Part shown: positions 5,984 to 41,384 of the stretch, one piece after another
Position numbering within the stretch: position 1 is the stretch's first letter
Layout of the letters: each line of letters starts with the position of its first letter
Origin: Utricularia gibba
Taxonomy: Eukaryota > Streptophyta > Magnoliopsida > Lamiales > Lentibulariaceae
Length of the DNA: 64,000 bases
Direction of reading: 5' to 3'
NCBI GenBank assembly: GCA_002189035.1
Contig: NEEC01000015.1
Span: 1,488,001 to 1,552,000, forward strand
Program-made: the position numbers and the translations under genes
Notes under the pieces: generated by a model
What the model was told of the DNA's origin: nothing
The model's input: only the letters and a program-made list of their open reading frames with translations
Database searches by the model: none

Positions 5984-8799
5984 TCAAATGCGTACTGGGA
6001 TTCTGCAGTGAGCATCAAGATCGTACTTCAGTTGTCTGAGACGCTCTTTTGCTCGATTTTCTGTTTCCGCTGCTCTCTCACATGCTTGGCTTATGTCAAC
6101 CTGCCAAACAAATCAGGGAATCATGTTCTGTTTATTTATCTAAAATGAATGCAGTAGATTATAGACCGAGAGTAAAAGATGCATGGTTAAGAATCACTTG
6201 TAGCTCAAGTAGTGTACTCACAGGACTTCGTTGTTCAGGACATGAGCTTCTCTCCAACAAAAGGCGAAGGCTTGCTAACTCTTTTATCAACTCCAGTGTG
6301 ATCTCTTCTGCATCAAACATTTGGTTCTGCGAGAACTCGAAGTTCTTCTCAGCATGAAGTCGAAAAGATGAGCAACTCAGACAACTGCACAGCCCTCTGC
6401 ACCCGAGTTTGTTTCGCTTCAGTATGCCCTTCGATGGGGCACTGCTGGTCTGCAAAGGCAATATATTATGTGGATTTTCAAATGATGGTCCAGTCATCTG
6501 AAAACCAATGTCCATGTCTGAACAAGTTTTTCTCTTCCCTGAACCAACTGCGTTCTTGAAATCCTGTTTCTGATCTAAAAGAACTTCGAGCTTTCCAGGA
6601 CTATCTGGATGAATGGGCGTTTCAGGAACATGTAATGCTACGGCAAGCGCTTCACCATTCGATTGCACGCTCATGCTTTGTGAAGATGACTGTGGTACTT
6701 GAACAACGGTATTTGGTGGACGCTGTTCACGGCAGGATTCCTGTTGTTTGAATGAACTTTGGTCATTATCAGCAGCTCCTGGTGAAGAATTTGTATCTGC
6801 TACTAAATTCTTCTCTGAAAGCGTGATCTGTTTCACACTCGAGTCACCTAAAGAGAAAGGTTGACATCAGCAAACAACTCACATATCATGTCATGTAACT
6901 TTGTTAACAAAGCAAAATTTACTTTCAGGATAAAGGACGAACCACGAATATTCTTGGAAATATCCATCAGATAAGGAAGAAGCTTCCTGTAGCTAACTGA
7001 TCTTTGGTTGTTGAAAAGCCGCCGCCGAGAGCAAGGAGCAAGTATCTACGCAGATGCAGTGAGTCAAATCCAGTACAAGAATATCTACTAACCAGGAAAA
7101 AATTACACAAAGCTATTCAATGAACAAATCCAATGTTGCAGTCAGGCAACACCATGAAGGTAAAAAATTCAGTAAGTTGTACCCGTTTTTTCAAAGAAGA
7201 CTCAGGTTTAGAAGGTGAACTGCGTTTAAGGACATCATGAACTGGGCAGCTACTGCTGTTTGGATTATCAGCAGGAATAGTAGACATGCATTCAAATTCT
7301 GTTCTCTTGAACATTTCAGGATCCGGAGGAGTCATCTGTCTATACTCTTCTCTTTCTGAAGCCATAAATCTTTTAGAATCAACTTGGTGAATCTCATGTC
7401 TTACCTTTTGAGGTGACACAGTTTCTACTATCTGATTCAGTTCATTCTCCATGGTTAAACGCGGACGCTTGGGGTCATCCTGAATTTCAGACTTGGGTTT
7501 TGAATCGCCTGCATTACATTTATTTTGTATGCATTCAGTGCTGATCCAAAGTATTAAAAATTCATAACTAGAAGAACTTTAACGGAGGAGAACTGACCGA
7601 GGGCATCACTCAGAATTCCCACGACATAAGGAAGCATTCTTCTGTAGCTGAATGAAGTGGAATATGAAAAAACCTTCATCTTTCCATTAGCAAGAGCCTG
7701 AACCGAATACTGGTATTAAGTTAAATACAGAAATAAGGATACAAATGAGGGACACACTTGTTAAAGTCTGACAGCTTCACTTATTCACTGAAAGAAAACT
7801 GGAAATGAAAATACCCTTTTAGTATTGGAAGCAGATTGTAAAATTGCTTTATCGTTTGAATTCAGACTATTTTTTGCGTCAGTATCAACTTGTCCTGCAT
7901 CAGCAAGCGCTGCTAAAGTTTCAGGTTTTTGAATGTTGTCAACCCGCTCCTGCTCAACCACCATCTCCGGCGAGCAGGAAGATCCTTTGTATTTTTCTAG
8001 ACAAAGCGACACCTGGGACTTCTCTAACCTTCCATCGCCTTCTTCAGTGCATTCCTCAGACAATGATGTTATAGATCCAGTACCATTGGGCTTGTCAACT
8101 TGCTCAACCATAGTCTTGGGGAATAGCAGGATCCCTCATCCTTCTGTGGATCAACTAAGTTCAACCGCGTCTGAGCCTCCTGGTGCTCTTGTTCTGCCAG
8201 ACTCTCTTCGGAAGCTGCTTCAAAAGTTTCAGATTCTTTGACATTGCCGGCTAGATCAACCATAATCCCGGGGAACAAGAAGACCCTTCGTCTTTTTCTG
8301 GAAAATTTGCGTCCAAAAGCAATTGGGCCTCTTCATTTTTCTGGATCTCTTCGTGTTGAACCCTATCACAGACAGTCGCTACAATTCCAGATCTTTCAAA
8401 ACTCTCAGCCTGCTGGGCCTCCTGGTTCACTTCTTTCTCCGATCTGTCTTCGGAAGCTGGTGCGATGGTTACAGATTCTTCGAGATCGCCAACCCTAATC
8501 TCCCCAGAAAAAGAAGAAGGGTCACCTGTCGCTGGACCAATTGAGCTACAAAACATCTGAGCCTTCACAATCTCCGATTTCTCTCCTTCTTCAACAGCAA
8601 GTAAATTTTGCATAGGAGAAAAAACCCTTCTAGACCGGATATCTCTGACACGCAGATTATATCCCGAAGTAGGAGCAGACATTCTATGAACGATTTGGGG
8701 ACGCCCAAATCCAGATCGGTTGAGGTGCAAGGTGTTGCTGCGGGTCAAAGGTCCGCAATTCGAAGGTGAAGGCTTCCTGCCGCCCTTCAGCTTCGCCAT
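5984..8799 (-). CDS. Plant-specific GILKRN/CRGLC-motif protein
   Basis: This is an uncharacterised protein conserved among land plants. The diagnostic block near the C-terminus reads GILKRN, then CRGLCSCLSCSSFRLHAEK and FEFSQNQMFDAEE, followed by a short helix-rich tail (VDISQACERAAETENRAK). Exons by homology and phase are 7815-8799, 7598-7697, 7183-7508, 6943-7045, 6222-6847 and 5984-6100. Exons 2 and 4 both carry SYR..LLPY/SYR..MLPY motifs and share splice phases (0 in, 1 out), as do exons 3 and 5, which suggests an internal exon-pair duplication. Exon 1 holds acidic repeats and changes frame twice, near 8267-8273 and 8116-8121. One added base at each site restores a 752-residue frame. Alternatively a phase-compatible intron (7997-8525) would bypass both and give 575 residues. 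Function is unknown. Confidence 0.8.
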
Positions 8800-9098
8800 G
8801 GAAATGGATGCGCAAGTCTACCGAACAGATCCCGAGCTTGAATGATGCAGGGTTTTGGCGCCATGTTATGGAGGGAAAATCAGCGTCTACGCTCTTTATG
8901 GCGGGAAATCAGGAGAGATAAGGGTTAAAAGCGTCATTCAAAATATTCCGTCTAAAAAATTAATATTTTTAAAAGATGAAAAAAATTAAAAATAAATTTC
9001 ATGAAAATTTTAATAATTTTATTATAAAGCGATTCAAAATTTAAAATAATTCAATCAAGAAATGTTAATTATTAAGCCCTAAATCCACGAAATGAAAA

Positions 9099-10971
9099 TT
9101 ATTCTCCAATGAGAACAAGTGTATGATCAAAACCTGCTACCGCTTGCAGGGTCTCACAGCCCTCCGGACCGTCGATCTCAACCATCACCGGTTCAAGTTC
9201 GTCCATGGAGCCACCAGATCCAAGACGGCCATCGCGACCGCACCCCCAGCTCCAAACCCTTTTCTCCGCCGTGGCTGCTAACGAATGCGCACGCCCTCCT
9301 GCTATCATCGTTACCTTTTCACCATCCATGCTATCGCTCTGAATTACACCAGGAACATCTTCTTTACCTCGTCTACCTAGCTGCCCGTTCGCGTTCCATC
9401 CCCAAGACAGAAGGCTGTTGTTTTCCTCACATATTGCCAGTGAATGCCCCAGCCCACATGCTATTTTCGTAACCCGGAGGCCTGTTTCCACCGGATGCAG
9501 CCCCATATCCTTCTTGGCTCTCCCTAGCTGCCCATACACATCACTTCCCCCGCTCAGAAGAGTTCCATCTCCTAAAATAATGAGCATGCTTTTCACAAGG
9601 GTGGTAAAGGGAGGGGTGAATCTAACATGCACTTTGAAGCACAATAGGATTCTAAAATTTGTAGATCATTACCGAATGAACCTGAAGAAAATGCTTTTGA
9701 ATGAAAGGAAGCTACTCACGGAGTAATACCAATGAGTGATCAAGCCCACAAGCAATATCGATAACTTGTGTATTGTCGACTTCTTCAACTAATGTCGGCT
9801 CCCAGATGATCGGCATAGCTTTTTCCTTCTCCACAGCTTCTAAAACCAAATCATTGGCTATTGCAGATGTATTTCGGGGTGCTTTGATTTTATCAGCTAC
9901 AGAATCCAGAGGAGATACCTCAAAGGGTCTGCCAATCTTCCCTAATCTACCATCAGCATAATAACCCCAGCCAAAGAGTTTTCCAGCATCAGTCAATGCA
10001 AGTGCATGCCCCCAACCAAATGACACCTGCAATACCATAGAGAAAAGGGCACAACCAAACTTAATAGAACATGTTGAAAAATGCTTTCAACCCTGTAACT
10101 TAGTGTTGTTATGAAAGAAAACATTTGTGCCTTCTTGCTGATTTATTTACTGTTGATTCTAACTAGAGCATCAATCAAAGGCCACCTTAAGGATAACTTC
10201 TCCAACCAGTGCTTCCACTCTAGCTGGCATGACAGATTCGCAAATATCCTGCCCAAGTCCTAGTTGCCCACGTTTAGATCTTCCCCATGCCCACAAGGAA
10301 CCATCTTCTACAATGACAGCAGATATTACACCAGACGCAAATGCAGACGCAACTCGTAGTTGATCTAATCCTTCTACTCTCTGTGGTGTGCTCCACATAT
10401 CTCTATAGAATGTTTAGAAATTCTTTAAACTCAAAGTTCCAAAGCACGAGAACATAAGAGACAGAAAAAAATACATCAATGCTTCCCAACTCCTACAACG
10501 ATAAAGATACTTTCAGCACACCAATGACAAGAAACCCACATGTGTATGACATGATTATTCATCAAAAATTGTCGGGCATATGATTTATTTTTCCTCATCT
10601 AAATTCGGACCCGAAAACTTTACGCACTCAACAGACCCAACGTAAAATTAATAGAGAAACCTAGGTGAACGGAGCCCGCGAGATAGCTGAAACTCAGAAT
10701 TGCGACCCCATGCCCAGAGTTCGCCGGAAGAAGTGACGGCCAGTGAATGGTAGTGGCCAGCAGCGACGCTGCTGACGTCGGAGGGGAGACCGGCGACAGG
10801 GATGGGCTCATAGGCTTGGACCCCCGGCGAAAGACCCAACGCGCCATGTGTGCCATCGCCGCAACTCATCACCGTCGAGAACGAACGCCAGGAAAAACTC
10901 CTTAACCCCACCGATTGCCATCGATTTGCAGCCTTCCGAACAAGAAATGGAACTTCTCCCATCCCACTCAT
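9099..10971 (-). CDS. RCC1-repeat (RUG/UVR8-like) protein
   Basis: This is a predicted 435-residue seven-bladed RCC1 beta-propeller from four exons (10661-10971, 10186-10402, 9720-10026 and 9099-9571), all GT-AG with matching phases. RCC1 blades are visible as repeated G.G..GQLG or G..GRLG and GHS.A motifs: YHSLAVTSSGELWAWGR, RGQLGLG, SFGWGHALALTDAGKLFGWG, ACGLDHSLVL, YGQLGRAKKD, GLGHSLAIC, GRAHSLAAT and GFDHTLVL. The N-terminus (about 35 residues, rich in Arg, Ser and aromatic residues, few acidic ones) looks like a mitochondrial presequence. That makes the RUG-type proteins, including mitochondrial RUG3, better candidates than nuclear RCC1 or UVR8. The exact orthologue is not settled. It lies head to head with the SANT/DUF3755 gene. 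Confidence 0.88.
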
Positions 10972-11746
10972 TTCGGTTTACCCATCTCCCATCTTCCTTT
11001 TTTCTGGGTAGGTGCCCACAACCCACACGTACGCATGGCCCAACCAGTTGCCCTGCCCTAGTACTCCTCCAGTCTGGATTTACAGCGAGGTCAAATGGAG
11101 ACGAAGCCCAAGTACACTCCTCTCTAACCGTCATTAACTGTCGCATTAGTTCATAATAAAAGTGAATTACTAATAAAAACTCTTAATAATGATAATTATT
11201 AATTATTTAAATAATTAAAGTAAATTACTATACATTTTTAATATAAATTATCTATTAAAATATTCTTAAAAAGAAAATTTGCACAAAATTAAACCCTTAA
11301 CAAATCTAGTGGAATAAATTGAAAATTTTTTGAAATAAAAATGTTTGATATTTCCGATTAACAATGACATAAACCATAAAAATTAAAAATAATAAATATT
11401 AACACCGAAATAAAAAGCTCGTCCATTTAGCAGCCACCGCACCACTCACCACTACCACCACCATCTTTTTTGCTTTCTTACGTGCGTTTCAGATTCCTCT
11501 TCTCTTTGCGTTGCTTTGCTTTGCTTTGTTTGGCTTTGCTTTTTTTTTATATATATATTTATTTGCGTCTTTTCTTCATTCACCTTCTTCCCCACTTCTA
11601 CTTTGGAATTTCCATCTCTTACAAATACTCCTTCTTCTCATGCTAAGGTTAATCTCAAACTGAGAGGGCCTTCAGTTTTTCTTTTTCTTTGAAACCCCTT
11701 TTTTACTCACGGAAAAAAGGCTTCTTCTTTGCATGTTTGGCTTCTG
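10972..11746. promoter_or_regulatory. Shared intergenic promoter region
   Basis: 775 bases between the start codons of two divergent genes (RCC1-like on minus, DUF3755 on plus). The middle is AT-rich. The plus side has a TATA stretch at 11549-11560 and a CT-rich leader (about 11560-11740). No open frame of note. Confidence 0.55.
11549..11560 (+). promoter_or_regulatory. TATA stretch for the DUF3755 gene
   Basis: ATATATATATTT following a T-rich run, about 190 bases upstream of the ATG and followed by a pyrimidine-rich leader typical of plant 5' UTRs. Confidence 0.45.
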
Positions 11747-17700: not shown

Positions 17701-20700
17701 CTGCCACTTAGAAATATATCTTTCTCAGTGGGTTAAGGAGTTTTTCATCGTTAGAAGTTAGCATTCTACTAACTTGTAATTTTAAATTGGAACAACATTC
17801 TTTCAAGTGAATTGAGAATGTGAAGACCTGCTTTGATGTTGTTCGTGGTCTTTGTGCAATTTCCCCCTTGACAGTGTCATTTTATTGCCATCTTTTATGA
17901 TATGTTTGAGCATTTTTAGTAATCATTGCCAGAATTCACCATATGTTGGAGTGTGTATATTCGTTTGCCCCTGACTTGGCATATATTTTCAGGCATGCTC
18001 ATCCCGGTAGTCCTTATGTATATGGGCTTGTTGCTGATGACCGTGACTTAGATTTTCCCGATCCAATGCCAGTAGTTGGTACTGAAATGAAAATCTTCTT
18101 TCACGCACTTCCTTGGAAATTGTGAATTATTCATGCACCGTGGATCTTTTGATTAATAAAAATGAGCCATTTCTTGTTGCTATGCTTTTGAATTAAGTAG
18201 TCTACCATGGTTCTTGACGTACATTAAACATTTTTTTGGTTCAAAGGTATATCACGCTCTGCTAAAGGATATTGCATGGTCTCGGTGCTGGAAACAATGA
18301 AAACATATTCTGTAGAGGATGGCCTGACAGAGGAAGCACTGGTTACCAAGTTGCGGACTTGTAGATGCCATCTTTTGTTCCTCCACGGATCAGTGAGGCA
18401 CAATGCATCAGGTCTGCCACACAAATAGTTTTTCTTTATTTTTTTTTTTTTTAAAACAAGATGGTAAAGCGCTTCAAATTTTCATTACTGCATTTTTTTT
18501 TATTTCAGTGGGAAAGCTTTGCATATAATTAATTATTCATCCAGTGAGCAAAGGTCGTACATGACTAATGATAAGGATGCTGGCCTGGTTTTGGGAAAAA
18601 GTAATAGTAATGGAAACGAGAAATACGTATATACATGATGTGTTTCTAAATTTTGCTCTAGTTTCCTGTTTTCGATTGATTGACTGACCAGTCAAGGGAA
18701 GTTAAACTTGATTGGCTGTTCAGTAGCTCATTTTACCATTATATTTATGAATTATCAACCCAAAAAGGATGTTTTTTTCTGATCTGAAACTGGTAGCACT
18801 TTTCTTCACTTTTGTTGTTTAGGGGTAACTCTTTTTTTAGTGCTTTTAAATTTGCAATACTCTCTGCAACAAACTTGAACCTACAAGTTTTTTACAATTT
18901 TGTTTTACCAATTTAAATTTAGGAAGGAAAGGGTTAAAAAACACTTTTTCGTATGTATAATGCCTAGGATTCTATGCAGGAACTTGTCGTTGGGGAGAAT
19001 ATGGTGAAGGAGGGCTTCTGTGGGGAGAATGTACTGCTAGACAGCATGAATGGTTTGATGGTGATCCAGTAAACGAGCTTTTGTCCAAGGTCACATAGAA
19101 ATCCTTGCTTGAATGTTGAGCCTATCATGTTATCTTTTCTGTTATTATTTAATTTATAATATTCATTTTTAAATAACAAGGTAAAAGATCTCTATGGTCT
19201 CGAAGATGATACCATGTTTAGGAATGTTACTGTTGGCACTGACAATCGGCCCAGCCCTTTACATCTCGGAACAGCCTCACAGATAGGTGATTTTAGAACT
19301 TGATCCTCACATGCTGACACATTTTTCTCTTTGAGAAAAATCTGCATACATGCATTTTTGTACTGGAGTCCAACCACAGAAAAAGTTCCAATTTTTCAAG
19401 GACTGCTCATCGCCTTCATATTTTGCCAAGTCCTAATCACAGTGCAGTGACTGACGTTGAGATAACAGCCATATAATCCACATTGTTTGTCCTTTTCATG
19501 ATATTACAATAGAAAAAAGCCTTTTGTTCTCTTTTTGGTTGTCCATAAAAAAACGCTGGCTATATCATCTTTCGATCTTTAAATACTGAATGCATTTATA
19601 CTGCTTGCTATCAGGTGCTCTCCCAACTGAGGGTATCCCTTGCTTACTAAATGTGCTACTTCCATCTGATTGTACTGGCCTTCCTGTTATGTAAGTGAAA
19701 GTTTATGATGCACATTGTAGAGTTTTGCGTTGTGAAGTGTCTCGCCTGGTATGCCAGTGCCTATCCTTTCTGCTGTTTACTTATTGTGATCCTACGTTTG
19801 CATCAATGTTACTGCCAAAGGTATATCCGAGATCTCCTTTTGAATCCTCCACAATATGAAATTGCATCAGCTATTCAAGGTTAGCAGTGATGAATGTGCA
19901 AAACCTGTCTTCTTTTTTCTTCCTGAGAAATTGCAATATCTGTCGTCGGTGTATATGTTATTAATTTTAAGATGCATGTGTACTTTCACCGCTTTCAACT
20001 TACCTAAGTTAGTTATGAATGAAATAGAGAAATTATTATTTTAGGAACATACTTTTTTCTCCTGAGGATGTACCAGTTAAAACAAATTTTTAGTCGGGGA
20101 GCATCTTCAAAAACTTGTTAAAGAGTTGGAAAGAAATTTTGTTTCAGCTTACCAAATTTGCTTCAGTTTTCACTCTTTGGACATGCACGTGTTTTCATGT
20201 ACTGTTTGTTTCTAGGATATCTGCTTGGCCTCACTGATGTTTCTATTCTTGTTTTCAGAAGCCTGCAAACTTTTGAGTAACGTTAAATGCTCCATTCCTG
20301 AGCTAATCTGTATCCCCCAGCGAAGGTTGGATGCTACTTATTGCACGTACATGAACTGCCATGCTATAATAATGGAAAATTTTTGGCACTCTTTTCATGG
20401 CTAAAATTTTCAACCTCATAAGAGTTTAAGTAATTATTTGACGTTTGATGCAAATACTCAACTGGAAAGTTGTCCCTTTCTATTTTACGAATTTCAACTT
20501 CACAAGATCGATAGCACAGGCTCTTTATTTTCTATCGGATTTTGATTGTCTGCTATTGGTTTTGGCCAATCATTTGTCTTAGAAATTCTTTTCGCTCCTG
20601 TAGCTTGTGAAGTTGCTTGAGTCAAAGGAGACCAATCACGTTGAGTTTTGCAAAATAAAAAAAATCCTTGATGATATATTTCAAATGTACAAAAATGTTG

Positions 20701-23328
20701 AGCTTACAGAAATTCTAAAGTTATTAATGGATCCCGCTTGGGTGGCCACTGGATTAAGAGTTGAACTGGAAACATTAGTAAGTACCTCACTATTTTCATC
20801 ATCTTGTCAATCGATGTTTTTTGCAACTTACCTGATGAGTAAGTACTATCTTTTAGGTGACTGAATGTGAAGCAATTTCATGTCGAATTGCTGATGTGAT
20901 TGCTTTGGATGGTGAGAAGGAGCAGAACATATCATCATTTCCCATAATCCCAAAAGAGTTTTTCGAGGACATGGAATCATCCTGGAAAGGTCGTGTAAAG
21001 AGGATACATTTAGAAGAAGAATTTGCTGAAGCAGATGCTGTGGCAAAGACCTTATTTGTAGCTGTGAGTACTCTTTTCTATGCCAGACATGGCATAGTTA
21101 TTTCACGTGTGAGACTTGTAGAAAATACGCTTTGTACATGTATGTCTAAGGTAGTTGTCTTATTTTTTCTAGATACAAGAAGACTTCGGCCCCATTATTT
21201 CAAGAATTAGAGCATCAACTGCTCCCCTTGGAGGGCCAAAGGGTGAGATAATCTACGCTCGTGAACATAAAGCTGTATGGTTCAGGGGGAAACGCTTCAC
21301 GCCAAATATATGGGCTGGCACACCTGGAGAAGAGCAGATCAAACAACTTATGCCTGCGAAGGATTCTAAGGGTAAAAGAGTGGGTGAAGAATGGTTCACA
21401 ACAGAGAAAGTAGACGAAGCATTAGTGAGGTACCGTTGATTTGCGTGAGAGTTGATTCTGATATATTTTAAGTGCTGTCTCTGGAATTACTTTAATGTGT
21501 GCCTTTTCTAGGTATCATGAAGCTCAGGAAAAGGCGAAAGAAAAAGTATTGGAACTTTTGCGGGGATTGTCCAAGGAGCTGCAAACAAGTATCAATATTC
21601 TAGTGTATGCATCTGTGCTGCTTGTTATTATCAAGGCATTGCTTAGTCATGTGAGGTCAGCCATATTAATCTTCCTTTTTTCGCAATAAAATTCAATGTT
21701 ATGAGCATCTTGCATCTTGCCTACTCTCTGAAATATGTTTCGTACCAGTGAAGGAAGGAGGAGGAAATGGGTTTTCCCTACTCTTGTCCAGCATCACAAG
21801 TCTGAGGTATCTTTTTCTATATTTTTGACTAGTGGTTCTTTCATATATATTCAACCGAAAAACTTTGCTCTAAGTGATTTGCTATGTTTCGAATATGGTA
21901 ATTTTTTCGTCCACTTTGTGCCAAACCACTCTTTTGAAATCTGGCAGCTTGGAGCACTGAGATTGAAGATCGTTGGCTTATCCCATATTGGTTTGATGCA
22001 GCACAAGGCAGTGCTGTGCCAAACACTGTCGACATGGAGTCACTGTTTCTCTTGACAGGACCGAATGGAGGGGGGAAATCAAGTCTGCTCAGGTCGCTAT
22101 GTGCAGCCGCATTGCTGGGAATATGTGGGCTAATGGTCCCTGCAGAATCAGCTTATATTCCTCATTTTGACGCCATTATGCTGCACATGAAATCTTATGA
22201 CAGTCCTGCTGATGGAAAGAGCTCTTTTCAGGTATGATTTCCATGCTCCCAGGGAAAACCCCCTCAACATCACTTTTGAAAATTTCATATTTCTGTTTTC
22301 GTGGTCTTCTTAGATTGAGATGTCCGAGATTCGTTCTATTATTAAAAAAGCCACTTCAAGAAGCCTCGTTATGGTTGATGAGATATGCCGTGGTACTGAA
22401 ACAGCGAAGGGAACATGCATTGCTGGCAGTCTAATTGAAACTCTTGATGCAACTCGTTGTTTGGGAATCATATCAACTCACCTGCATGGGATCTTTGACT
22501 TACCGCTGAGAACAAGAAATGTTGTCTTTAAAGCGATGGGAGCAGAATGTGTAGGGAACAAAATCATGCCAACATGGAAACTGATGGACGGCATCTGCAA
22601 GGAGAGCCTTGCATTTGAAACCGCCAAGAGAGAAGGGGTTCCTGATGAGCTAATTGAAAGAGCCCAGGATTTGTATCATTCAGTTTATTTAAAGGATTCC
22701 TCGATGCAGCGTGTCCCAGAACTGATCCAATCCACTTCTTCAAGCGTTGTTGGTAAGCAAAGTTGTCATCAGGAAGATGTACCAGTGCTCCCTTCACAAT
22801 CAGTGGATTTCCACCAAGAAGTTGAAAATGCTGTCATTAGCATATGCCAGAAAAGATTGAGTGAAGTATACAAGTTGAATGAGATGGAGACGCATTCACT
22901 GGTAAAATGTGTTCACGTTGGTGCCAGAGAACAACCACCTCCATCAACCGTCGGCAATTCAAGCGTCTACATCATGCTTAGACCAGACAGAAAGGTGTAC
23001 GTTGGACAGGTACATGGAAGTCCTCTTTTGAGCTCGTTAAGGCTTCTGCTTCTCTTCTCTGTTTTGTATTTTTTTTGGTATAATGGTTGTTGGTTTTCAG
23101 TCAGATGATCTTCATACTCGAGTGCGTGCCCATCGTGCAAAGGAAGGGCTGCAGAATGCACAATTCTTGTACTTGGTGGTTCCAGGAAAGAGCATAGCTT
23201 GTGAATTGGAAACCCTTCTCATCAATCAGCTTCCAGATCGAGGTTTTCGCCTTATGAACACTGCTGATGGAATGCATCGCAACTTTGGAACTGGTCACTT
23301 TCTTGAAGCCCAGATTCTGCTGAGGTGA
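14756..23328 (+). CDS. MSH1: MSH1, organellar MutS homologue with GIY-YIG
   Basis: MSH1 is a MutS homologue targeted to mitochondria and plastids; it suppresses recombination between short repeats and repairs organelle DNA. I trace 22 exons, as in Arabidopsis: 14756-14871, 15797-15920, 16048-16145, 16576-16651, 16857-16976, 17234-17281, 17426-17490, 17993-18078, 18247-18411, 18980-19089, 19181-19286, 19615-19690, 19821-19879, 20259-20325, 20604-20777, 20857-21063, 21173-21429, 21512-21655, 21749-21806, 21948-22231, 22314-23009 and 23101-23328. The Arg-rich N-terminus is a transit peptide. Mismatch-recognition DFYEAIG lies near residue 142, Walker A TGPNGGGKSS near 757, and Walker B LVMVDE near 832. 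The GIY-YIG domain (VYIMLRPDRKVYVGQ, then HTRVRAHRAKEGLQ) is C-terminal. The conserved frame breaks by one base in exon 14 (C run 20314-20318) and exon 20 (21982-21984). With both restored the protein is 1121 residues, the expected length. Confidence 0.97.
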
Positions 23329-23575
23329 TAGCAAATGCTTCCATGTTTGAAATGGCGTTTTTTTGGCAGAGTTGAGCTTTGTTGAGCATCAACTTGCATG
23401 TATACGTACCATGTAGCCCCAGCAGTGACCTTCGGAAATGTAAATCAGCATTCCTGACCACTGCACCAGAGATGGTTGTGGCAACTCACGCATCTGATTA
23501 CCATGAAATGTAAATGCACTCGGCAACTTCAAGAGTTGCGAATTTTTGTTCTCGAGAGTTCTTTTATCCACACTT

Positions 23576-23657: not shown

Positions 23658-23665
23658 TGTTTTGA

Positions 23666-23673
23666 TTTTTTTT
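23666..23673 (+). terminator. Pol III terminator of tRNA-Ser
   Basis: A run of eight T, nine bases after the tRNA 3' end; a standard RNA polymerase III stop. Confidence 0.8.
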
Positions 23674-27781: not shown

Positions 27782-30700
27782 CTACTTGTACATGTCTTGG
27801 ATCTGGTTTCTGTACAGAGACATCACTTTCTCCCTCTTGATTTTCATTGTTGGAGTCATCAAACCATTTTCTATCTGCACTCAGAACGAAACTGAACCAG
27901 TCACAAAAACCAAAAGGATACATAGAATTTCGACATAGCCCTGACTATGCATACCGTGAATGGATCATCAACAACAAGGATGGGTCCAACTTGAAACGAG
28001 CAGTCAGATGTCCTGCGTTATAGAAAACACCAGCCAGGTTCAAATGAGATTTCAGAGGCAGCACTCGGCTGAACCCTCAGACTTAGAACACATGTTGATA
28101 GAAACGTTCTCCATTCAAAACACAGAAGAGGACAGAGAGTAGGGAAAGGAAGCATTCAATGAATGACAAATACAGGGAATATTAGTAGCTTTGAAAGAGA
28201 AGCAGTAGAATGTTGAATCACAAAAAAAAAAAAAAAAAAAAAAACCATTTACTGAAGTTTAATTTGTAGCTGTCAGACTGAAAGTGCAATGGTTTAAAAA
28301 TTGGCATTGACTAAGTAGTTCAAGCAATGGTCATGCTGGACCATTAGGACGGACCAAGAGAAAGTAAGAGGCTGTCTTACCATTTCTTTAACTCTTCGTG
28401 CAGCAGGTTCACCTGTTTCTGGTTACTAAGTTCTGAGAAATCGTGTTCCAAAATACCCAACCTTTTAGCTTCCGAAATGACTTCTTCCTTGTTTGGGACA
28501 ATTACAGCTCCAAGCCGTCGTTGATCCTACGTAATTATAATCAAAGCTTAGTATACAGTGAGGCGGCTCACACAAAAATGAGTATAAGTTGATTGTCACC
28601 TGTCCAACAACCATGATCTGTTGAATCAGGTTACTTTTCATTGCTGCTGCTTCAATATTTGATGGCTCAACATTTTCACCTGAAGAATAACAAGGAGATA
28701 CAAAAATTAACCATACAATGAAACGATCTCGATCATGTTTTTGATGAGACATGTATCTAGCATTCTCACATTAGGCAGGGAGCTTTTTTTTTGGAATCAG
28801 TAGTGTATTACAGCTACTGATTGCAACTACTAAAAACAAGACTTGAGGGATTTCACAGCTCATTAGCACTAGAATCATTAAACAATTAATGAATTTTATA
28901 AACAGGGATTCATCTGCACTTCTGAGAAACAAATCAAATTTTTGTCTTTGCGAGGTAAAAGTGAGACTTTCAAAGATGGAAACTAAAAGTTTATTTTCTA
29001 TGTTCTATCCAATTACGGTTTCATCTGGAAGATAATGACTAGTAATTCACAAAAGATGATACAATTAAAAGAAAAAAAGAAGGATTTGAATTTACCAGTG
29101 GAAAGAACAATTGTTTCCTTTGCACGTCCTTCTAGGACAATAACTCCTCCAGCTTCACGACTTCTTCCTCTAGAATGGTAAGGGCAAACCCAACCTATAT
29201 CCCCTGTATTTAGCCAGCCATCATCATCTATTGCTTGTGTTGTTGCCAAAGGATTCTAGTCATGTTAAAAAGTTGGCTTGAGTCTCACATGCTAAAGACG
29301 AAGCTTGGAAATGATGCGAAATACTTAAACTACAAACTGATTTACGGGGGAAAAAACATCAGTAAGCGTCCTACACTGCTTATAAGCTAGATTACAATTC
29401 GGATTACTATTCTCATTTTTGTATAAGAAAATGGTCATTATCAGTAATATAATTTACTCTAAAGGTTATCTAGTAATCTTATAGGCTTGGTTAGGAATAA
29501 GTACATTGTTAGCGAAAAGTACTATGTACGTAGCAAACATGCTCTTACTGTTCACCGTAATCTACAGTATATTGTCTTCTAATATCAACTCGCAAAACAG
29601 AAAGCATAGAAAATAATTTACAATTATTTGTGCTTGAAAACTGATTCATATAAAATCCCAGAGAGTTGGTGCCATAAAATCTAACTGCTTACTTAATACC
29701 TACTGATCCGTATGTTAGAGGCAGTAAGCCCTTATCGCATTCCCTTTTTATAACTCTAACTACGTTATAAAAACACAAGCTATGAGACTACCTTGTAATA
29801 ACCCTTCATCACTTGTGGACCTCGTACTTTCACGATGCCGCTGGATCCATTGGGAAGAATCACACCTGTCTCAACATCCACGATCTTTATCTCTGTGTGA
29901 CAAATAGGATGCCCGATGGAACCCAGAACCTTTATAATTATCACAAGTAAATATTTACAAGGCATGGCATATAAACGCTTATAAGAAGGTACTTGATGAG
30001 TTCATGCGTACATAAGATAAGAAGTATCATTTTTTCAGAAGGAAGGTAGCAGTAAAAAAATGTAAACCAGAAGTTTGAGTGGAAAACTTTGGCCACAATC
30101 ACTGCCAAATAACCTATTCATAAGCTTCATAGTATCTACATAAGAGTCTTTTGTGCTGAAAAGAGAATGAGGATATCTAATAACTGGATATAGATTCTCT
30201 CATGGGTTAAAAGCGCAGTAAAAGTGAAACAATGCATCCCCCCCAGTTGAGAGGAGGAAGCACAACAGGACACAGAAAACAAATTAACAACAGAAAAGGT
30301 TCCTTACGTTACAATCTAGTCGTCGAGCTGCAATGACAGGAGATGACTCTGTTAAACCATAGCCATTTTGCACATTCACTTCGATTGCCTGTTCAAACAT
30401 ATCTCTATACTGATTATGACAACTTCGTATCCTGATAATTGAAATGTTTTATTGATGAGATGAACCTCAAAGAACTTATCCACATGTAAAGGCAAGCTAC
30501 CACCCCCACTTATTCCAGCCTACAAAAAAGCCCAAATCATATCTGTATCAGATAGCTTGTCTCCACGTGCTAAAATCCATTTGAAAATGAGCATCTTGTG
30601 TGAATGAAAAGTAAATAGAAAAAAGACCTTGGAAATGCCAACTGAAGAATGAATTTTACTGTACACTATTTTCTTTGCCAACAGATGAAATGGCCATAAA

Positions 30701-33700
30701 AGAACTGCAATTATTCTGGACCACAACCATTCAATCCCCGCAGAGAGAATGGAAGGCTCCTCAAGATCTCTCGTGAGGCATTTTCCCTTGAGACAAGAAA
30801 AACGGCTTAATAAAGCATGGAATGGAAAAATGGCTTAATATATGTCCAAGGTTCAATATTGAAAAAATTTCAGAGAATGAGAAATGGCAATAAGAACAAA
30901 ATAAATTCAAATTAGAAACCATGTTCAGGGTGATTTCTATAGTACTCATAATGTTTCTAAATGAGTGAAATTCCGATTTACCAACTTCCGGCATTAAAAT
31001 TAGACAATACATCTTCTCCTGACATGTACTGCTCATAAAGTTCAATTTGCATACAGATCTGTACACTAGCTTGAGATAAAGCACAATGCCATCCTTAACT
31101 TCGTGAGATAGTTAAAAAAAATCAAGAATGAATCATTAAGTGCTGCCCATTTAACTGAATAATTACTTCAGACTAATTTCTTTCCATCCTTTTCAAATTT
31201 ACAAAAAGGAACATTGGAACTGCTCATTTAAAATCACAGGATACTTCATGAAGCTGATTTCTAAGCTGGGAAAAAATGAGCATATTGTACTATAAAGTGG
31301 CATCATCAACATAACGTAATCCCTTCAATCATTTCCAATTCAGTTGGAGATTTATGTATCATGTCGGCCTGTTTTCCTACTTCCCGAGTTTAAAGCAAGT
31401 AAAATCACTGGCATGCTATCTTACTGAAAATATTGACTATTTGGCACCCTATTCTCTAAAAAAAAAAAGATAAACAAAATCAGCATGTTGTTTAGACATG
31501 AAAATTTCTCCATTTCAGACTACTGGAAAAAAATTACATTCATCCAATAAAAAACATAAAAAATAAAATTTGAAAGGTCATGAATTTAACCTCATATGTT
31601 CGTTTAGCATCCATGTACGCATAACTGATCTTCAAGCACAACAGAGCAATATTCCTACGAATAGCCGAACTTTTGGAAATCTGCTTCATAACCCCCCTGC
31701 AGTACTGTGGTCAGCACTACCAAAGAAAAAAAAAAGAGCAAACAACGTGTTTAAACAGCACAAAGAACAGAAAATTTCTCGATGCTTATTTTAACAATTA
31801 GGTGTGAGCGAAACACATTACATAGAAATGCATTGGAAATCGTTAACTAACTTCAAGAAACAAAATTTAGATTCTTTTTACCGACACTTTTATGCTGAAC
31901 ATCAATTCACCAATGCAAATAGTTTGACACGTACCCTTAAATAATGAGCTGTTAGCATACTCAACCACATGCAAGGCACACTCATCAATTCAAAGAGAAA
32001 ATTTTCCACATTCACCTAGATAAAAAAAATGCACCAAAGAAATTTGCATTCATATGTAATAAAAATACTACATGATACCAGCCATACAGTTTTCTACATT
32101 TTTTTTTCCCAAAAGGCTTCCAAATATTCTTCCATGCAACAAGTGCAATGTCATTTATAGGAATAAGAGAAGAAGTGAATGTGTTTGACAACTTCAACAA
32201 AAATTTTTACCTGTAAAGTGTCTCGTAAACTAGAGGAACCGAGACAATATAGTGAGGTTGATAATTACGCAAATCTTCCTGCAATACACATGCACTACAT
32301 GATACATTATATCTATGAAATACATCAATAACATAAAAATTTAAGAGCATATTCCTCTTGGAATGAATCAAGTGCATCAATTGAAGGGAGTTCATGCCTT
32401 AAGCTTCTTTACTGAAGAATATACATGCTCAATGCCACATGTAAATGTAAAATATTCAGCAGCTCGCTCATATGCATGCCAGGGTGGTAGCATGCTTAAA
32501 AATCTATCCCCAGGAACAGCAGGAAGAACATCACCAAATTTACAACCTAAAATAAATTGAGCACGATTAGAAGCAATAAAAAAGGAATAGTAATTAACAG
32601 GCATTACGTAACTCAGCATCATGAAATAAACAACTAATGCTCATGCAAAAACTAAAAATTCTATTGTATATATATCATGGACAGAAAAGAATAACATGAA
32701 GTTGCATTTTTTTGGTGACATGAAATTATGGAGTATTACAGAGACTTGAGCTCAAAGTCATCAAATTTCATAGTTGGTCCAATGGCAACAATATATTTTG
32801 AAACTTCAGAAACATCGCATGAAGTAGTCAGCACTTCTGTCAAATAGGAGAATTTATACCTTCATGCTACTGATTTAGCAAATAAAATAACAATAATTTG
32901 CATTGCCTTTTTGGAAGAACTTTTCAGGGCAAAATATAACAACCCGTGCTGCATAGGATTTTATGGAAAGCAAAACAAAGATGGCGAAAGTAGTATTACT
33001 AGCAAAAGGATATTTACATAGTTAGATTGTACAAACACGTGGGGGAGCTCCACAGGCACTACACACCAATTGTATATCACAAAAACTGGGATCTGCTTCT
33101 TTTTATATCCAGTGTTACATGTAACTACCTCTAAATGTAAGAAAATGTAAATCATCTGCTAAAGTTGGCACATGGCTTGTTAGCTCAGAGAGAAATTGTT
33201 TTTTCACACAATGGATGCAGTACAATATAATATGTGTCGCTGACTCTTAGTAATATGTTCATGATCAACTTATGCAAATTTTCATGCTTACCTCCAAACA
33301 CAACAATTCTTTAATGGAAAGTTCAAAGTGCCTAAGTGCATCAATAGCTACTATACTGAACACTCCCTCAGAAAATTACTCCATTAACTGGGCATTTCAT
33401 TGATTTTATCAACAATTTTCTATCATTTTGACTGCGTAGTCAATGCAAGTTAAGAAGTGTAGAAATATTAAAATATATGAAAAGAGCACCCTAATGCACA
33501 CAATTAAATGCACACTTCATTCAAATCGAGGGCAAAATAAAAAGGAAAGGATCATATTATTAGAAGACACACAATTGACAATCAGTTCGCAGCTTAGTGC
33601 TACTCATGTTATTTGATCCAATATGATGGAAGTACTTATCATGAAACTTGAATCTGACCTGATGTAGCAAATTCCTATGGGTAAGCATGACACCTTTGGG

Positions 33701-36700
33701 ATTTCCAGTGGTGCCACTGGTATAAACCATCGTACAAACATCATCTGGCTGTAGAGTTTCGTGAATCTGCCTTTCTCCTCCCAGGGAAGAAACAAAACAT
33801 TCAATAAACGAAACATTAACAAATCAAAAGTTGAAATCAGTAACCAACACTTTATGGCATACACACAGAAAGCGAGTATTTTAAAGTTCAGTCGCATTCT
33901 TCATGGAATGGATCAGATAACACATCAAAAAACCACTAAAAAAAATAAAAGCGTACTGGCAACTTGAGGATTACCTAAAGCAGCACGACTTTTGACACCC
34001 AAATCAATAATATCATTGTAACTGTATACAGGAATATTTGCAACACTTGGAATCTTCCCCCATAGAAAAACAATGAACCTAATGCTGGCTTCAGACAGAA
34101 ATTCCTGTGAAATCTGCTGGTAAAATTGGGAATCATCCAACACCATGGCAATACTGCAGTGAAATTTTCAAATCACATTATCACCAATAAATGAAAAGGA
34201 AAGATAATTTTCTCTTTTAAAAAAAATTACGTGTTAAAACCGTTTGTTATGCCTGATGTTATTCTTCTAACATGGTTTACAAATTTTGAGAAATGAGATA
34301 TTTACTAAAGTCGACCAACAGTGCAGATGAAAACTATTAAACTAATGTGAAAATGTGTCAAAGCAGAACTTATATCACTCAAAGGTGAAAAATTTTCAGA
34401 AAATGTAACTTTTAAACAATATTTTGGGAAACATGCAAGAGTTTGCATTCAAATGTATCTAAATGAAGACTTCGAATGTAATCCAATTTCTGATATCATA
34501 TCACACCTTGCTTGTATAATCTAATAATGCATCTAGAGAAATCATATCCTGGGTCGTCAATTTAAGAAAAACTAAAAAATGAAAGGATTTTAAAACACTC
34601 GGAAGAAAATATGTAGTCTTATAGGTTGGAGAGTTTACAATAATTAATTGAACACTGTCCAGCATAAATTCAGAATGTTGTCGCATTAACTAGTTTCATT
34701 CGCATGCCATAACATGGTTGTGAACATCACAAGTTTTCATTAAGAATAATTTCCATATTTTGAACTCAATTATAATGAAACTGTGAAAAAATCAATTCAA
34801 TTCATTCTTCCATAACAGATTGAAGATATCATGCTCTACAACCGTGAGGTGCATACTTGCTATGTTCAACTTAATTCCACCATTCATGAGGCCTCCAGAT
34901 TAGCAAATTGTATTACTATATGAATGAACCTCAACATTGCATTTTTTACAGAAATTGCAGGTTTTGAAAAGAGTTACATGATTGGAGAGACACAAATAAC
35001 CTTTCAGAATGGTTGTAAATCTGCAGAAGCTCTTGACTGGATGACCTAGTGCCTCTTACAACGTTTATTGCTCCAGAAGCCATAATCCCTGAGGATAACA
35101 CGTGTTCCCAGAAGATTGTAAGACGAGATATAAAATTTAGTAGAGAAAATAAATGTTTTAAAAGAAAATAATAAAAATAATATTAAATTCAAGTAACACC
35201 GGCTTATTAATTATCAGGTGAGCATTATACATAATAGGATATGTGAATAATAATGGAAAAAATATTAGCTTTTTATTGCACAGATTCAGAGTCATCAATT
35301 CTAGAAACAATCATCTGATAGGCATTGATCGGAAAATGCAAGCATAGAAAAGACTACACATTCAGGAGAAAACATAAAGATTGTGTCACGTTATTGCTGA
35401 AGTTGAAGTGAATTTTGCATTAGTTTGTTGACTACCATTGGACTGAAAACATGTGGTCACTGACTCTAGATGCGGCTTCAAGACCAGAGAGTACCATAAG
35501 CATACTAGATGTTGTCAACATGTATACTAGCACATGGCCTTAGCCTTTCTCCAAAAATCATACAACAATAAAGAAATGATTCAAATTATCTTGCAGCTTA
35601 CCCACATAGGCAACTCTTACTTGGATTTGCAAATTCTAGATTCAAAGAAAAAAAAACATGGTAAATCACAAGTCTCTTCTGCTACGCATGCTTTCCATAC
35701 TCATTGCAAGTTCTTGTCGAAGTTACCAGAAAAATTATTATTAGTGATGTGTTACTTTTGTTACATGTATGTAATACAACAACCAGACGTTACTATGTGA
35801 ATGGCTAGGCTGGGGTGAACTAAGGTATGCTCACAGTGAAAATACAAATGATTGATGCATTGCAACTAAAAGGGGTTCATGAAAAGATTACGTGAACCAA
35901 ACTTAAAGACCCATGCTTTTCATCATACCTTGGTCAGAGATGAGCCATCGACAAGAATTATCAGCAAACAGAGCAATCTTTTCACCGGGTTTTAAACCAA
36001 CCACTCTCAGGCCTTCACAAAAATTCAAAATATCTTGCTCGAGCTGGACCCAGTAAAATCCTCGGGTTAAAAACCCCAGTGAAAACACACCAAATTGAAA
36101 AAAAAAATGAAAAGCTACGTAAGACCAAGGGATCTCCGAAGCCAAAATAGAAGTTTAAGATTTGACTAAGATTTAAAAAAGGAAAATGAAATTTGACTTA
36201 ATCGAAAATTTAGATAGTGGAAAACAACTTTATTGAAGGCAACATCTCCTAAGGTAACCTCTTAACATCTCAGAAAATAAACCTTTTAAGAGACTAGTCC
36301 ATAAGAACAAGAAAATAAACCTCCTCAACATAAATCTTGTCACATCCGGCTAAAATGATGGTATACTACAAGAAATTATCAGTAATTATGCTGCAGTCAT
36401 GTAACAACTCAAAAGAGGTTAAAACACATAAAATCTTGTAGGTGATTCTCTCTGTTTTTGAAAAATATCTTTTGTTGTTGTGAATTCAAAATAATAAAAA
36501 ATACTCCCCTAACAATTTTAGAGGCATAAGTCATATCCTCCCATTGCATACAGCATTAACCGTTTCCTACTCACATGATAATAAAACACACTACTGATAT
36601 ACTCCCTTAATAGCAACTACCAATTTCATATCTTAAAATTTCTGAATTTTTCATGAGTTGAAGAGAATTATCACTCCTACAAGAATATCCATTTAACTTT

Positions 36701-37638
36701 TCTTTTTATACTTTCCCTTGAACGCATTCGTGTTCCCCCCCCCCCCCCCCCCCAATTTAGAATTTGTACTTCATTTTTTCTGAATGCTAGATCAAGACTG
36801 TTATTGTGAATACCAAGAAATCGGAAAATTGACCTGCTTGTAGGAAATATTTGTTGGGGGATTGTGATAAGGATCCACCAAAGCAATGAGATCACCAAAT
36901 TTTTCTGCAGATGTTCTCCAGATCTCAGGTATTGTTTTCCATTCTTCAGAAGAAAAGGCCTTTTTTGTTGATACTGGATCACTTTCTACTGATGGTGAAA
37001 ACTTTGTTTTCTGCACGACTTTGATCTTAAAAATCATCATGTTGAAATAAAGCGGTTATGACGCAGAATGCAATGTTAGTACTTAATGATAATAATAAAT
37101 TAGTAAGCATCACAACGATGAAATAAACATCATTGATAGATATTTGTTATACCATGTGAAATATCTTGTTGTCCAAAAACATAAGATTTGATCTAAAGCC
37201 AGAAAACACGTTTCCATTTCATATAGCTCAAGTTTAAAATCTCTTTTTCAACAATCAGGCGGTCAACTTGCTTTCAAAACATCATGCTTCATCAACGTCC
37301 TCTGTCCTCGGATCACACAAATGTGTTTCTTTTAAATGCATCAGACGTCTTTCTAGCGATGTACAACTGCCGGTGGTATCCTTTTCCGCATGTTAGTAAT
37401 ATCGACAATGAGACCCCCCCCCCCCCCCCCCCAAAAAAAATGAAAACTGATAAAAAAATACCAAGCAAGAAAATGCAATTAGGGAAACAAAGGCTACCGA
37501 TGCGGCGCAGAAGACTCGAAAATCTGGAGTTGAGTACAGCGTATTAGCGCCACACTTCTTGTAAAAGCCTGAGGAGCCGATAAATTCATGCGTCAAAACG
37601 ATCCCACGATGGCAGCCGGAAACTGGTGCCGCGAACAT
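27782..37638 (-). CDS. Plastid acyl-activating enzyme (AAE15/16-like)
   Basis: This is an ATP-dependent long-chain acyl-activating enzyme; the plastid AAE15/AAE16 pair includes acyl-ACP synthetases that reload free fatty acids. Eighteen exons run from 37498-37638 (transit peptide) through 36834-37025, 35929-36043, 35001-35088, 33975-34153, 33659-33777, 32398-32546, 32211-32278, 31591-31696, 30628-30786, 30466-30519, 30308-30388, 29792-29929, 29096-29255, 28600-28679, 28381-28526 and 27955-28012 to 27782-27874. Motifs are the P-loop [12 protein letters not shown] near residue 257, [31 protein letters not shown], and the late catalytic lysine region [12 protein letters not shown]. The start is the ATG at 37638. 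The conserved frame needs one extra base in exon 7 (GG at 32534-32535); the protein is then 708 residues. Intron 7 begins with GC. Confidence 0.93.
28222..28244. repeat. A23 homopolymer in an intron
   Basis: Twenty-three A on the plus strand inside an intron (28013-28380) of the acyl-activating enzyme gene; the transcript carries it as a U tract. Confidence 0.95.
36735..36753. repeat. C19 homopolymer, intron 2
   Basis: Nineteen consecutive C on the plus strand inside intron 2 of the acyl-activating enzyme gene; the pre-mRNA carries G19. Length in an assembly is not reliable for such a run. Confidence 0.95.
37414..37432. repeat. C19A8 homopolymer tract, intron 1
   Basis: Nineteen consecutive C followed by eight A, inside intron 1 of the same gene and of the same apparent length as the tract at 36735. 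Confidence 0.95.
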
Positions 37639-37975
37639 GCTCGAAGAAGAAAAGAAAACTTCGATCCAAAGCGCTTCGTGTTGCGAGGGCGATGATCCTG
37701 AGGATAGCTTCAATTTCTACTTCAGCGGCATTCAAAACACACCAAACGACAAAAAACATTAAATATTAAATAATTTAAAATAAATAAATAAAAATAAGAG
37801 GCTGGTGTTCCAATTTTAGTTGAGAATGATGCAGAATTTTATCCTCCACAATAAATAAGAAACTTAGTTTTATAATAATTATATATTATTTTAATTCTCA
37901 TTTTTCAACGTCAATGAATGTACAATATGGTAATTTCACAATTGAAGAGAATATGGATCAGCAGTAGCAGCATAG
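37639..37975. other. Intergenic region upstream of acyl-activating enzyme
   Basis: Divergent promoter space between the minus-strand enzyme gene and the unidentified plus-strand region. AT-rich at 37750-37960. No recognisable gene. Confidence 0.5.
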
Positions 37976-38590
37976 TTGCACACGACTCAGCAACCAGAAG
38001 CAAAGTCGCACACGAAATTAGTTTGCAACGCTAGTTTCGGCTCCTCTTTCGTCTCCTTTTCTTCGTTTCCGACTCTCGGGTCGGACCCGGCTGCAGTCCT
38101 AACGATGCTTGAATCAATGGTGAAGTGCATGCCGGAGTTGGACTATGAAAATTGTACGCTCAAAGCTAGTTTCTTTATCTTCAAATGTGCAAAGGGGCAT
38201 CCAGAAGTTGTCTGTCTGCCCGCTCTCTCAGCAGTGCGCTATCGGCTCCGCTGCCTCGCCCCAGGACCAGATTTTCTTCCACCAATTAGGCTGCTGTTGA
38301 CCCGCCCCCAGATTTCCTAAAAACGTGCATCTTTGCTTCCTCCAGTCCTGGTTGTTACCAGAACTCGTTGCCAAGATGTTTCAGACACGTGCGGTATACT
38401 TTCTGATGAGCAAGCAATTACTCTTTATGGTCCCATGAACGCATCAGCAACCATGTTGATGCTGACTCAAGTTCAGGGTTTGCTAAAACCCCTTGTTGAG
38501 AGTATCACAACAGGTGCAAATGCGGATAAACTCCACATTAAAAATGAACTGCTACTTGAGCGGTTTGTGGCTGATCGCTTAACCAGTTAA
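37976..38590 (+). pseudogene. Unidentified ORF region, possible gene remnant
   Basis: Two open segments in the same frame (to 38320 and from 38333), separated by a single TAA at 38318-38320, look protein-like. The first contains LESMVKCMPELDYENCTLKA and a Cys/Lys run; the second contains ILSDEQAITLYG, MLTQVQGLLKPLVES and IKNELLLERFVADRL and ends in TAA. The helical, Leu-rich second part would suit an ARM/HEAT-type or scaffold protein, but I do not recognise the family. It may be a decayed gene copy, a gene with a short intron over the stop, or another frame-shifted locus like its neighbours. A pyrimidine-rich stretch ending CCTCCAG at about 38345 could be a splice acceptor. Treat the product as unknown. 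Confidence 0.35.
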
Positions 38591-38997
38591 TCGCACGATT
38601 AGGCAACGCATGGGATGTTACCTACCTTAAACTAAAGCCTAAACTATAACTTAAACACAGACAGAGGACGAATAGGTTCATGCAATATAGTATTATTTTG
38701 TCAATGACTGTTAAAGCCGGTGGAAAAAGCAAGTGTTAGAGGGTTCCGTCCACTCAACTCCAAGAGGAAAGTTAGCACTCGGGCTACTTATCTTCCGTCT
38801 GAACTTGGTCATTTTAAGAGTGACATAACTAATTCATTTATTTATCTTATCAACTGGTATTTCCTGGTTCGTGGGCGCTTTCGATTTTGATCATTAGAAG
38901 AAGAAGAAAATGGGAATCGAGCTTCCAAGTGCACTACCTAAACAATTCCATTGCATAGAAAATGAATGAGAATGTGATCATAGACAGATGTGGGTTT
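38591..38997. other. Intergenic region
   Basis: About 0.4 kb between the unidentified plus-strand region and the small secreted-protein gene. Nothing recognisable. Confidence 0.5.
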
Positions 38998-39291
38998 TCA
39001 ATGCATCAATCCGGGCGTCTGGGGTTGAGGCGGAGGTGCAGCACCTTGAAGAAGCAGGAACCCCCCGCACGCCACCGGGATGAACGTACACGGAGACTCG
39101 GATGACGGTGGCACCGGCGCTCGGAAAGATTCCATCGTTGCATTTATATCACCTGCTGGTGGTGGTGCTGCTGCTATGGTTCTCGCACCCTCAGCTTCTA
39201 TGCAGCAACTAGAAATCCACACCAGGATGCATAACACGGCGATGCATGTGTAGCTACGGTGCCACGGCGGGAACGATGATGGCGATGCCAT
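38998..39291 (-). CDS. Small secreted protein, uncharacterised
   Basis: This is a 97-residue protein whose start is set at the ATG at 39291 (MASPSSFPPW). Upstream in-frame codons lie beyond the TATA box at 39335-39342 and cannot be translated from that promoter. Residues about 14-32 form a hydrophobic signal-peptide core (CIAVLCILVWISSCC) with a likely cut after EAEG. The mature part is short and Pro/Ala-rich, with APPPAGD, an acidic-Ser stretch, the motif SPCTFIPVACGG, and a Pro-Gln tail. The two mature cysteines could form one disulfide. The size, secretion signal and conserved-looking C-terminal motif suggest a signalling-peptide precursor or cell-wall protein. I cannot place it in CLE, IDA, RGF, PIP or other named families. 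Confidence 0.6.
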   Translation of the reverse strand: MASPSSFPPWHRSYTCIAVLCILVWISSCCIEAEGARTIAAAPPPAGDINATMESFRAPVPPSSESPCTFIPVACGGFLLLQGAAPPPQPQTPGLMH

Positions 39292-39334
39292 CCTTTTGTT
39301 TGAACTCAGGGAAGTTTGGTGGAGGGAGGTGGAG

Positions 39335-39342
39335 TATTTATA
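39335..39342 (-). promoter_or_regulatory. TATA box of the small secreted protein gene
   Basis: TATAAATA on the minus strand, 44 bases upstream of the chosen ATG, which supports that start. Confidence 0.6.
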
Positions 39343-39841
39343 GGCTAACCTTGTAAAATCAAAAATTCGGAAAATAATATATATATTAAATCCCATTCTA
39401 AAATCGTGTTATTATTTCAACAATTTAACTTATTATTCGAATATTTCTTATTTTTTACACAATAAAATAGAAAGTGGGTTTTATGATCGATTTAATATCA
39501 TTGAACTAACTAAAAAAGATTAAAAATGTTCTGTAAAATGTTTGGATAATATTTTTATTTCTATTTTTATCAAAAATAATTATATACAAAATATTTCTTA
39601 TTTCTATTTTTGTTTTTGATAAATTTTTAAATATAATTAAAAATAAATCAAAATTAGAAATAAAGAAATATCTAATTTTAATTTCTTTTTTTATTTTTAT
39701 CATTAAATTCCGGAAAATAATTTTATTTCAATAATTTTCCTATTCATCATTTATGTTTCTATTCTTCAATATATCTACAATGTGATGCAACAAGCCAACA
39801 CTGCAGCAAACAAATAAATAGTTTGACAAAGAGAAGATCGA
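39343..39841. other. AT-rich intergenic region
   Basis: Very AT-rich spacer. Minus-strand open frames here are Ile/Lys/Phe/Asn-rich reads of AT sequence, not genes. The right end is the XRCC4 3' UTR. Confidence 0.6.
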
Positions 39842-41384
39842 TCATCTTCTTTTTCTACCACGAGGCTTGCGCGTGGAGCAACCCTTGAGGTCTTGCCTCT
39901 TGCCTCTCCTGAATCTTGCTCGCTGCCTTCATCAATGGTTTCAGTTCTCTCCGTGGAAGCACTCTCATTGTCTGTGGATTGAGGAGCAGCTTCTTCTTCT
40001 TTAGACAGGCGGTCTCGAAGCTCTCTGAGTTTTTCTTTTTTGCTGCTCAGAACTTGAACAAACTGACAGCAACAAAAAGATTGTTAGCTAATGGATCATG
40101 AATAAGGTACCGAAAAGAAAGCAAGCAAGGGAAAAGCATTTCTTGCCTTCCCATAAGTTTCTGTTTCGAACTCTGAACGTTCGCGGCAGAGTCTTTCACT
40201 TTGTGCTAGACATTTTTCTGTTTCTTCTTCCAGTTTTTCAAATTCTTGTTTTCTCCAGAGAACTTCCTCCTGATCAATCCAAGAAACAACTCAATAGGCA
40301 TACCAGAGTACATAATACTATGTCAACTAAAGAAATAAAAAACAGCCCAACTCAGCTATATCTATCATGATTGTAGCAAAGTGCAAATTTTTTTAAAAAA
40401 TGCTGATAGATTCACCATTATTTTTCACTTAATTCAACTAACAGCGAAAGGAGCTCGCTACCACATCAAAAGAAGATTGAAGCCAGCTCATAATATCCAT
40501 CATAGTTCACTATCTGCTGAGGTGAGTCTACGAAATCAACTCAAATCTTAGAGAAAAATAGGTAAGACTTATATCTGAAACGCCTTACACTCAGTTTTAT
40601 GTTGGAATCCATGAGAAAGTCTAAGATCTCTACTGTGGTTTCCTTGCTACTGAAAGAAGGTTGAAGCTTCCATCGCCATTCAAGCTTAACGCCTCCTTTC
40701 TCAAATGTCCAAGATAACTACTTCAAAAAAATGCAAAAGTAGCAGTTGTTTAAGGTTATCTCTATTTATCATCATTGAAACTCAGAGGAAGTATCACTAG
40801 TCCCAAATGTTGGAGCAGCTATTTGGAACTACTTTTTCATGATATGTGTTGTATAACAGCATGAGAGTTGATAAAACCAAAGCCCATGGATTAAAACAAC
40901 TTTCAAAACTCGGAATGGCCAGAAAACAAGCACCTTCCTTTGAGGAGCATCAAATATTCAAAACAACTAAGCGTGCAGCAAAACAAGCAATAAAGGAAGA
41001 TATTTGTACGAGCAAACCCGTTTGCATCCATTTCCAGCATCAGAAAAGCTGTAAACGGACCCCGGCTGCTGAAACCCAGGTATCTCTCGGAAAATTCGAT
41101 GTAATCAGATACCGTTAGGTCCCAGTTTGATGCCCTCTCTCTAACTTCCTCCTCAGTTGCTTCAACACAAAACAAAAAAGAGTGATTTACTTGAAGCACG
41201 TTCCCACAATTATGAGGTAGTTTGTGCATAGTCTCGTACCATTGCAAGTCCACGCATGGAGGCCATCAGTAACGGCAAGGTCGAAGCGGGCCGGAAAACA
41301 GGTCCCCTTGACGAACACAGGTGCCTGCCCGCCGCCGGCAGTGGGTGCTTCCAATTTCAAGCACGTGTGTTTCGCCATGGCCAT
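39842..41384 (-). CDS. XRCC4: XRCC4, NHEJ ligase partner
   Basis: XRCC4 is the scaffold that binds and stabilises DNA ligase IV in non-homologous end joining. Exons are 41240-41384, 41018-41159, 40589-40717, 40147-40269 and 39842-40062. The head domain reads CLKLEAP, PVFVKGTCFPARFDLAVTDG, ATEEEVRERAS, SWTFEKGGVKLEWRWKLQPS and VEILDFLMDSNIKLS. The coiled coil reads EEVLWRKQEFEKLEEETEKC, ETETYGKFVQVLSSKKEKLR. Two ATGs six bases apart are possible (41384 and 41378). Exon 2 loses the conserved frame by one base near 41072-41077. A second single-base shift in exon 5 (about 39860-39900) would give a basic NLS-like end, KPRGRKRR, and 253 residues in all. Without it the frame runs on to a stop at 39775. 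Intron 4 starts with GC. Arabidopsis XRCC4 is of similar length. Confidence 0.9.

Follow-up and report, generated by a model that had tools for sequence, protein, structure and literature searches.

The seven one-base gaps that interrupt four conserved genes in a 64,000 nt stretch of the Utricularia gibba genome (the window, G000:C412:1488001-1552000) are almost certainly errors left behind in the consensus of a long-read assembly, and not mutations. The gaps are read as consensus mistakes because the same losses recur across the genome (100.09 Mb in 516 contigs) and because one stretch of DNA, assembled twice, differs from itself only in this way. Each of the seven sites was translated in three frames. 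At all seven, a conserved peptide breaks off at the site and resumes immediately one frame back, which corresponds to one missing base; all seven are losses, with no gains. The proposal of the preliminary description that a single added base restores each conserved frame therefore holds at every site. Its proposal that every site lies in or next to a short G/C run holds at six of the seven, where a run of at least 3 nt falls inside the interval in which the base must be missing (P about 8e-5; the limits of each interval were chosen by eye), and is weak at the seventh, in the acyl-activating enzyme gene, where the run is only GG.

The first gene with frame breaks, 'GILKRN' (6159-8817, minus strand), consists of open segments with an internal peptide repeat. 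In particular, its open segments at 8251-8817, about 8116-8270 and about 7860-8116 lie in three successive frames, while the piece at 6159-6866 has no Pfam match. The repeat has three units (KDEGSSCSP..MV, KDEGSCYSP..MVEQ and KYKGSSCSPEMVVEQ) and shifts to a new frame at each of two sites: a one-base loss at CCCCGGGG (8267-8273, minus strand), where the frame of unit 1 restarts one base short, and a one-base loss at CCCC (GGGG on the plus strand; 8116-8121, minus strand), where that of unit 2 does the same. Both are assigned as losses because the units at 8267 and 8116 drop frame at the same place, in the context TTCCCC, while the third unit stays in frame.

The MSH1-like gene (17910-23325, plus strand) has two frame breaks and carries MutS domain V, with Pfam MutS_V matches at 21938-22234 and 22314-23105. 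The first break is a one-base loss at CCCCC (20314-20318, plus strand), where the protein reads ...ELICIP and then PAK before the adjoining AAG|GT donor, and the next exon starts with ..GTAG|CTT GTG AAG (LVKLLES) in phase 0. Because the acceptor exon is in phase 0, the frame printed at 20314 cannot be spliced in phase; the AAG|GT donor and the GTAG|CTT GTG acceptor agree only with one base missing upstream, which places the loss at 20314. The second is a one-base loss at CCC (21982-21984, plus strand), where ...KIVGLS is followed in a new frame by PYWFDAAQG, leading into MutS domain V just downstream. The placement of both sites is taken to follow from the splice phase, the MutS_V match and the Arabidopsis protein; when solved structures were searched for a plant MSH1 that could be aligned over them, only bacterial MutS and MSH2/3/6 relatives were returned. 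A genome search found no close second copy of MSH1, the other matches being only 26-45% identical, and a literature search found no paper connecting U. gibba with MSH1.

The acyl-activating enzyme gene (AMP-binding; 29783-33900, minus strand) has one frame break, a one-base loss near GG (32534-32535, minus strand) in the weakest run context of the seven; the missing base is not pinned to a clear run. Its exons NLLHQ|GT (CATCAG|GT) and TTTTAG|GTTGTAAATTTGG (TTTTAG|GTTGTA) meet in phase 0, and the conserved frame restarts one base short. Reading across the break extends the PF00501 match from 62.9 bits (155-194) as printed to 89.2 bits (155-237).

The XRCC4 gene (39845-41585, minus strand) is the sole PF06632 locus and the sole DNA copy found by genome searches, and has two frame breaks. 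At a one-base loss at GGGTTT (CCC on the plus strand; 41072-41077, minus strand), ...ERYLG is followed by FQQPGSVYSFSDA; the PF06632 match ends at profile position 64 as printed (58.8 bits, 2-64) and reaches position 100 of 102 when read across (85.6 bits, 2-100). The second, a probable one-base loss at the C-terminus, had been placed with less certainty at about 39860-39900. The frame change there, from GEARGKTS to STRKPRGRKRR-stop, is clear, and the site can be narrowed to GGG (CCC on the plus strand; 39882-39884, minus strand) or close by, although the exact base is not fixed.

The same signature occurs far outside the window. A set of 64 PPR loci, with about 101 kb of coding sequence, was obtained by a Pfam search and picked independently of the finding. 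PPR genes are mostly intronless and repeat every 105 nt, so that a lost base becomes visible as a 104 nt spacing. The 64 loci contain eight frame breaks (two each in L012 and L063, and one each in L015, L046, L061 and L070), all of them single-base losses, and in five the motif spacing is exactly 104 instead of 105 nt. Their contexts are GGG, GGG, unclear, GGGGG, CCCC, GGG, GGGTTT and GGAAGG; six of the eight contain GGG/CCC or longer, and the PPR set alone gives a P of about 4e-4. These eight correspond to a frame-breaking loss in roughly every 13 kb of coding sequence, with a 95% interval of about 6-29 kb. A one-base gain in L039 (about 4160-4380) was excluded, since a T-run gain together with a stop was taken to mark a real pseudogene piece. 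The region concerned (4100-4400 in minus-strand coordinates) is a degenerate PPR fragment that lies beside an intact PPR gene and looks like such a piece.

Could ordinary introns or mis-set exon borders account for the frame changes? Apparent breaks in three PPR loci (L047, L062 and L067) did turn out to be introns and were left out of the count, as did the interruption in the window's own PPR gene. At the sites of the finding, however, conserved peptides abut and leave no space for an intron, a PPR spacing of 104 nt is one short of the repeat, and the exon phases of MSH1 and the acyl-activating enzyme mismatch the printed frame, making this explanation scarcely credible. The preliminary description also held that the neighbouring genes are free of breaks, which is borne out in the two that were looked at: the exons of the RCC1-like gene are open, and the PPR gene is interrupted by an intron. 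The latter gene (58388-60733, minus strand) has a short intron of about 75 bp (GG|GTATGC...AAACAG|A) and no frame break there; an intron is itself unusual in a PPR gene.

Further, an HSP70 search revealed three genes with abutting matches offset by a single missing base (C304 about 2236270, C496 about 433400 and C451 about 3343890), and a UGT search revealed two with abutting one-base losses (C4 about 1171890 and C255 about 2205900). All five were confirmed by reading the DNA, in the contexts AGG/GTT, CCC, GGG, GGGGG and GG. Together, the PPR, HSP70 and UGT genes add 13 breaks on many contigs, of which 13 are single-base losses and none are gains, mostly at G/C runs. No clear abutting breaks were found among the 92 of 269 P450 candidates that were scored, which is not strong counter-evidence. 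A codon-usage scan for frame breaks had low power, recovering four of the eight in PPR genes but missing all those in the window; an apparent gain that it indicated in L032, with a weak 84 nt segment following the main open frame of the gene, was not counted. Overall, the pooled events (7 in the window and 13 elsewhere) are 20 losses out of 20, and 15 of the 20 have a G/C run of at least 3 nt compared to 3.1 expected (P about 4e-9).

The strongest evidence for a consensus error is a disagreement of the assembly with itself. The P450 search revealed a 5 kb stretch of a small contig, C376:17700-22700 (L078), that the assembly contains a second time at C413:5401556-5406556 (L079). Across 4,999 aligned bases there are no substitutions and two internal differences, TGGGGC to TGGGC and TCCCT to TCCT from C376 to C413, with C413 shorter both times. 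One 181-residue open frame on the minus strand of C376 spans both places and is broken at both in C413. Between alleles or paralogues, substitutions would be expected too. The directional, context-linked consensus error put forward in the preliminary description is thus supported twice, by a signature that recurs in unrelated genes and by two contigs that differ through such losses alone. Redundant small contigs like C376 can be used to gauge consensus error from within the assembly.

A second redundant pair covers a tandem HSP70 cluster, C241:13300-18600 (L072) and C304:2235460-2240760 (L073). The two share an identical stretch of about 2.1 kb and then diverge, and may represent paralogy or a mis-join. 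One HSP70 one-base loss is common to both contigs and lies within the identical stretch. This shared loss fits a recurrent context error, but also a real mutation. Separately, the sizes of contigs C1, C2 and C505 (8500000, 6192500 and 3452500) are round numbers, all divisible by 2,500, and may be a trace of trimming or of consensus windows in the assembly pipeline.

If the breaks were real frameshift mutations, the four genes would be decaying pseudogenes, perhaps forming a local loss-of-function cluster. The frames are indeed broken in the printed sequence, and two contigs share one of the HSP70 losses. Moreover, MSH1 acts in organelle genome surveillance and XRCC4 in end joining, and as both are DNA-repair genes without a close second copy, their joint loss would make a story. 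Neutral gene decay, however, gives gains, nonsense changes and longer indels besides single-base losses, and the 20 breaks include neither gains nor in-frame nonsense changes; the exons read of the window's broken genes likewise contain no gains, no in-frame nonsense changes and no longer indels, and thus lack the build-up of stops, insertions and deletions that marks a pseudogene. The same signature is also found in otherwise intact PPR, HSP70 and UGT genes, and C376 and C413 differ by such losses in the absence of any substitution. These observations make real mutation at the four genes very improbable. A mixed case, in which some breaks are real, above all those in MSH1 and XRCC4, so that a compact genome lost two DNA-repair genes within about 20 kb, is a little less probable again.

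Another way to keep the printed sequence is programmed -1 ribosomal frameshifting, in which the ribosome would re-read one base. Such frameshifting needs a slippery heptamer X XXY YYZ, and an in-frame heptamer is present at 3 of 14 tested sites (C CCG GGA, A AAT TTG and G GGT TTC). The other 11 have none, and among windows centred on GGG/CCC, 8.5% contain the heptamer by chance. Further, similar breaks are found across many unrelated genes, and at such sites two contigs differ from each other, leaving this explanation with hardly any probability.

Under a consensus error, the consensus step would have made short G or C runs one base too short. The chemistry and software behind it would probably be PacBio continuous long reads, assembled by HGAP and polished by Quiver, with too little short-read correction. 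In that case MSH1, XRCC4, the acyl-activating enzyme gene and 'GILKRN' would most likely be intact; in particular, MSH1 and XRCC4 look broken and are probably intact in reality. The U. gibba assembly was built from PacBio reads with HGAP/Quiver at 88x and has a contig N50 of 3.4 Mb (PMC5793159). In Quiver-polished assemblies elsewhere, leftover out-of-frame homopolymer indels have been suggested to be PacBio error (PMC6950926), and indels have been suggested to be the chief type of long-read error to disrupt genes (PMC8445201).

Losses are more numerous in the window than expected from the PPR rate, with 7 compared to about 1.2-2 for a roughly estimated coding span of 15-25 kb (P about 2e-4 to 4e-3, uncorrected for the choice of window). 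A low local read depth would explain this excess.

The feature is almost certainly an artefact of the assembly, and its use is to caution against inferring gene loss. If the PPR rate holds, annotation of this assembly would split or truncate thousands of genes. U. gibba is known for its reduced genome, and MSH1, XRCC4 and other genes could be falsely reported as lost on the basis of these sequences; claims of gene loss from this assembly need to be checked against the reads.

The breaks resemble the frameshifts of pseudogenes in that a one-base change disrupts a conserved frame, and differ from them in the lack of gains and nonsense changes, in a G/C context that extends genome-wide, and in the disagreement between two assembled copies of one stretch of DNA. 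They are closer to the residual homopolymer indels of PacBio HGAP/Quiver assemblies, where single-base indels in short runs break otherwise intact genes (PMC6950926, PMC8445201). Unlike those indels, the ones counted here are only losses and fall mostly in G or C runs, some of them just 3 nt long, and, unlike known long-read residual indels, their rate in the window is several times the average in PPR genes.
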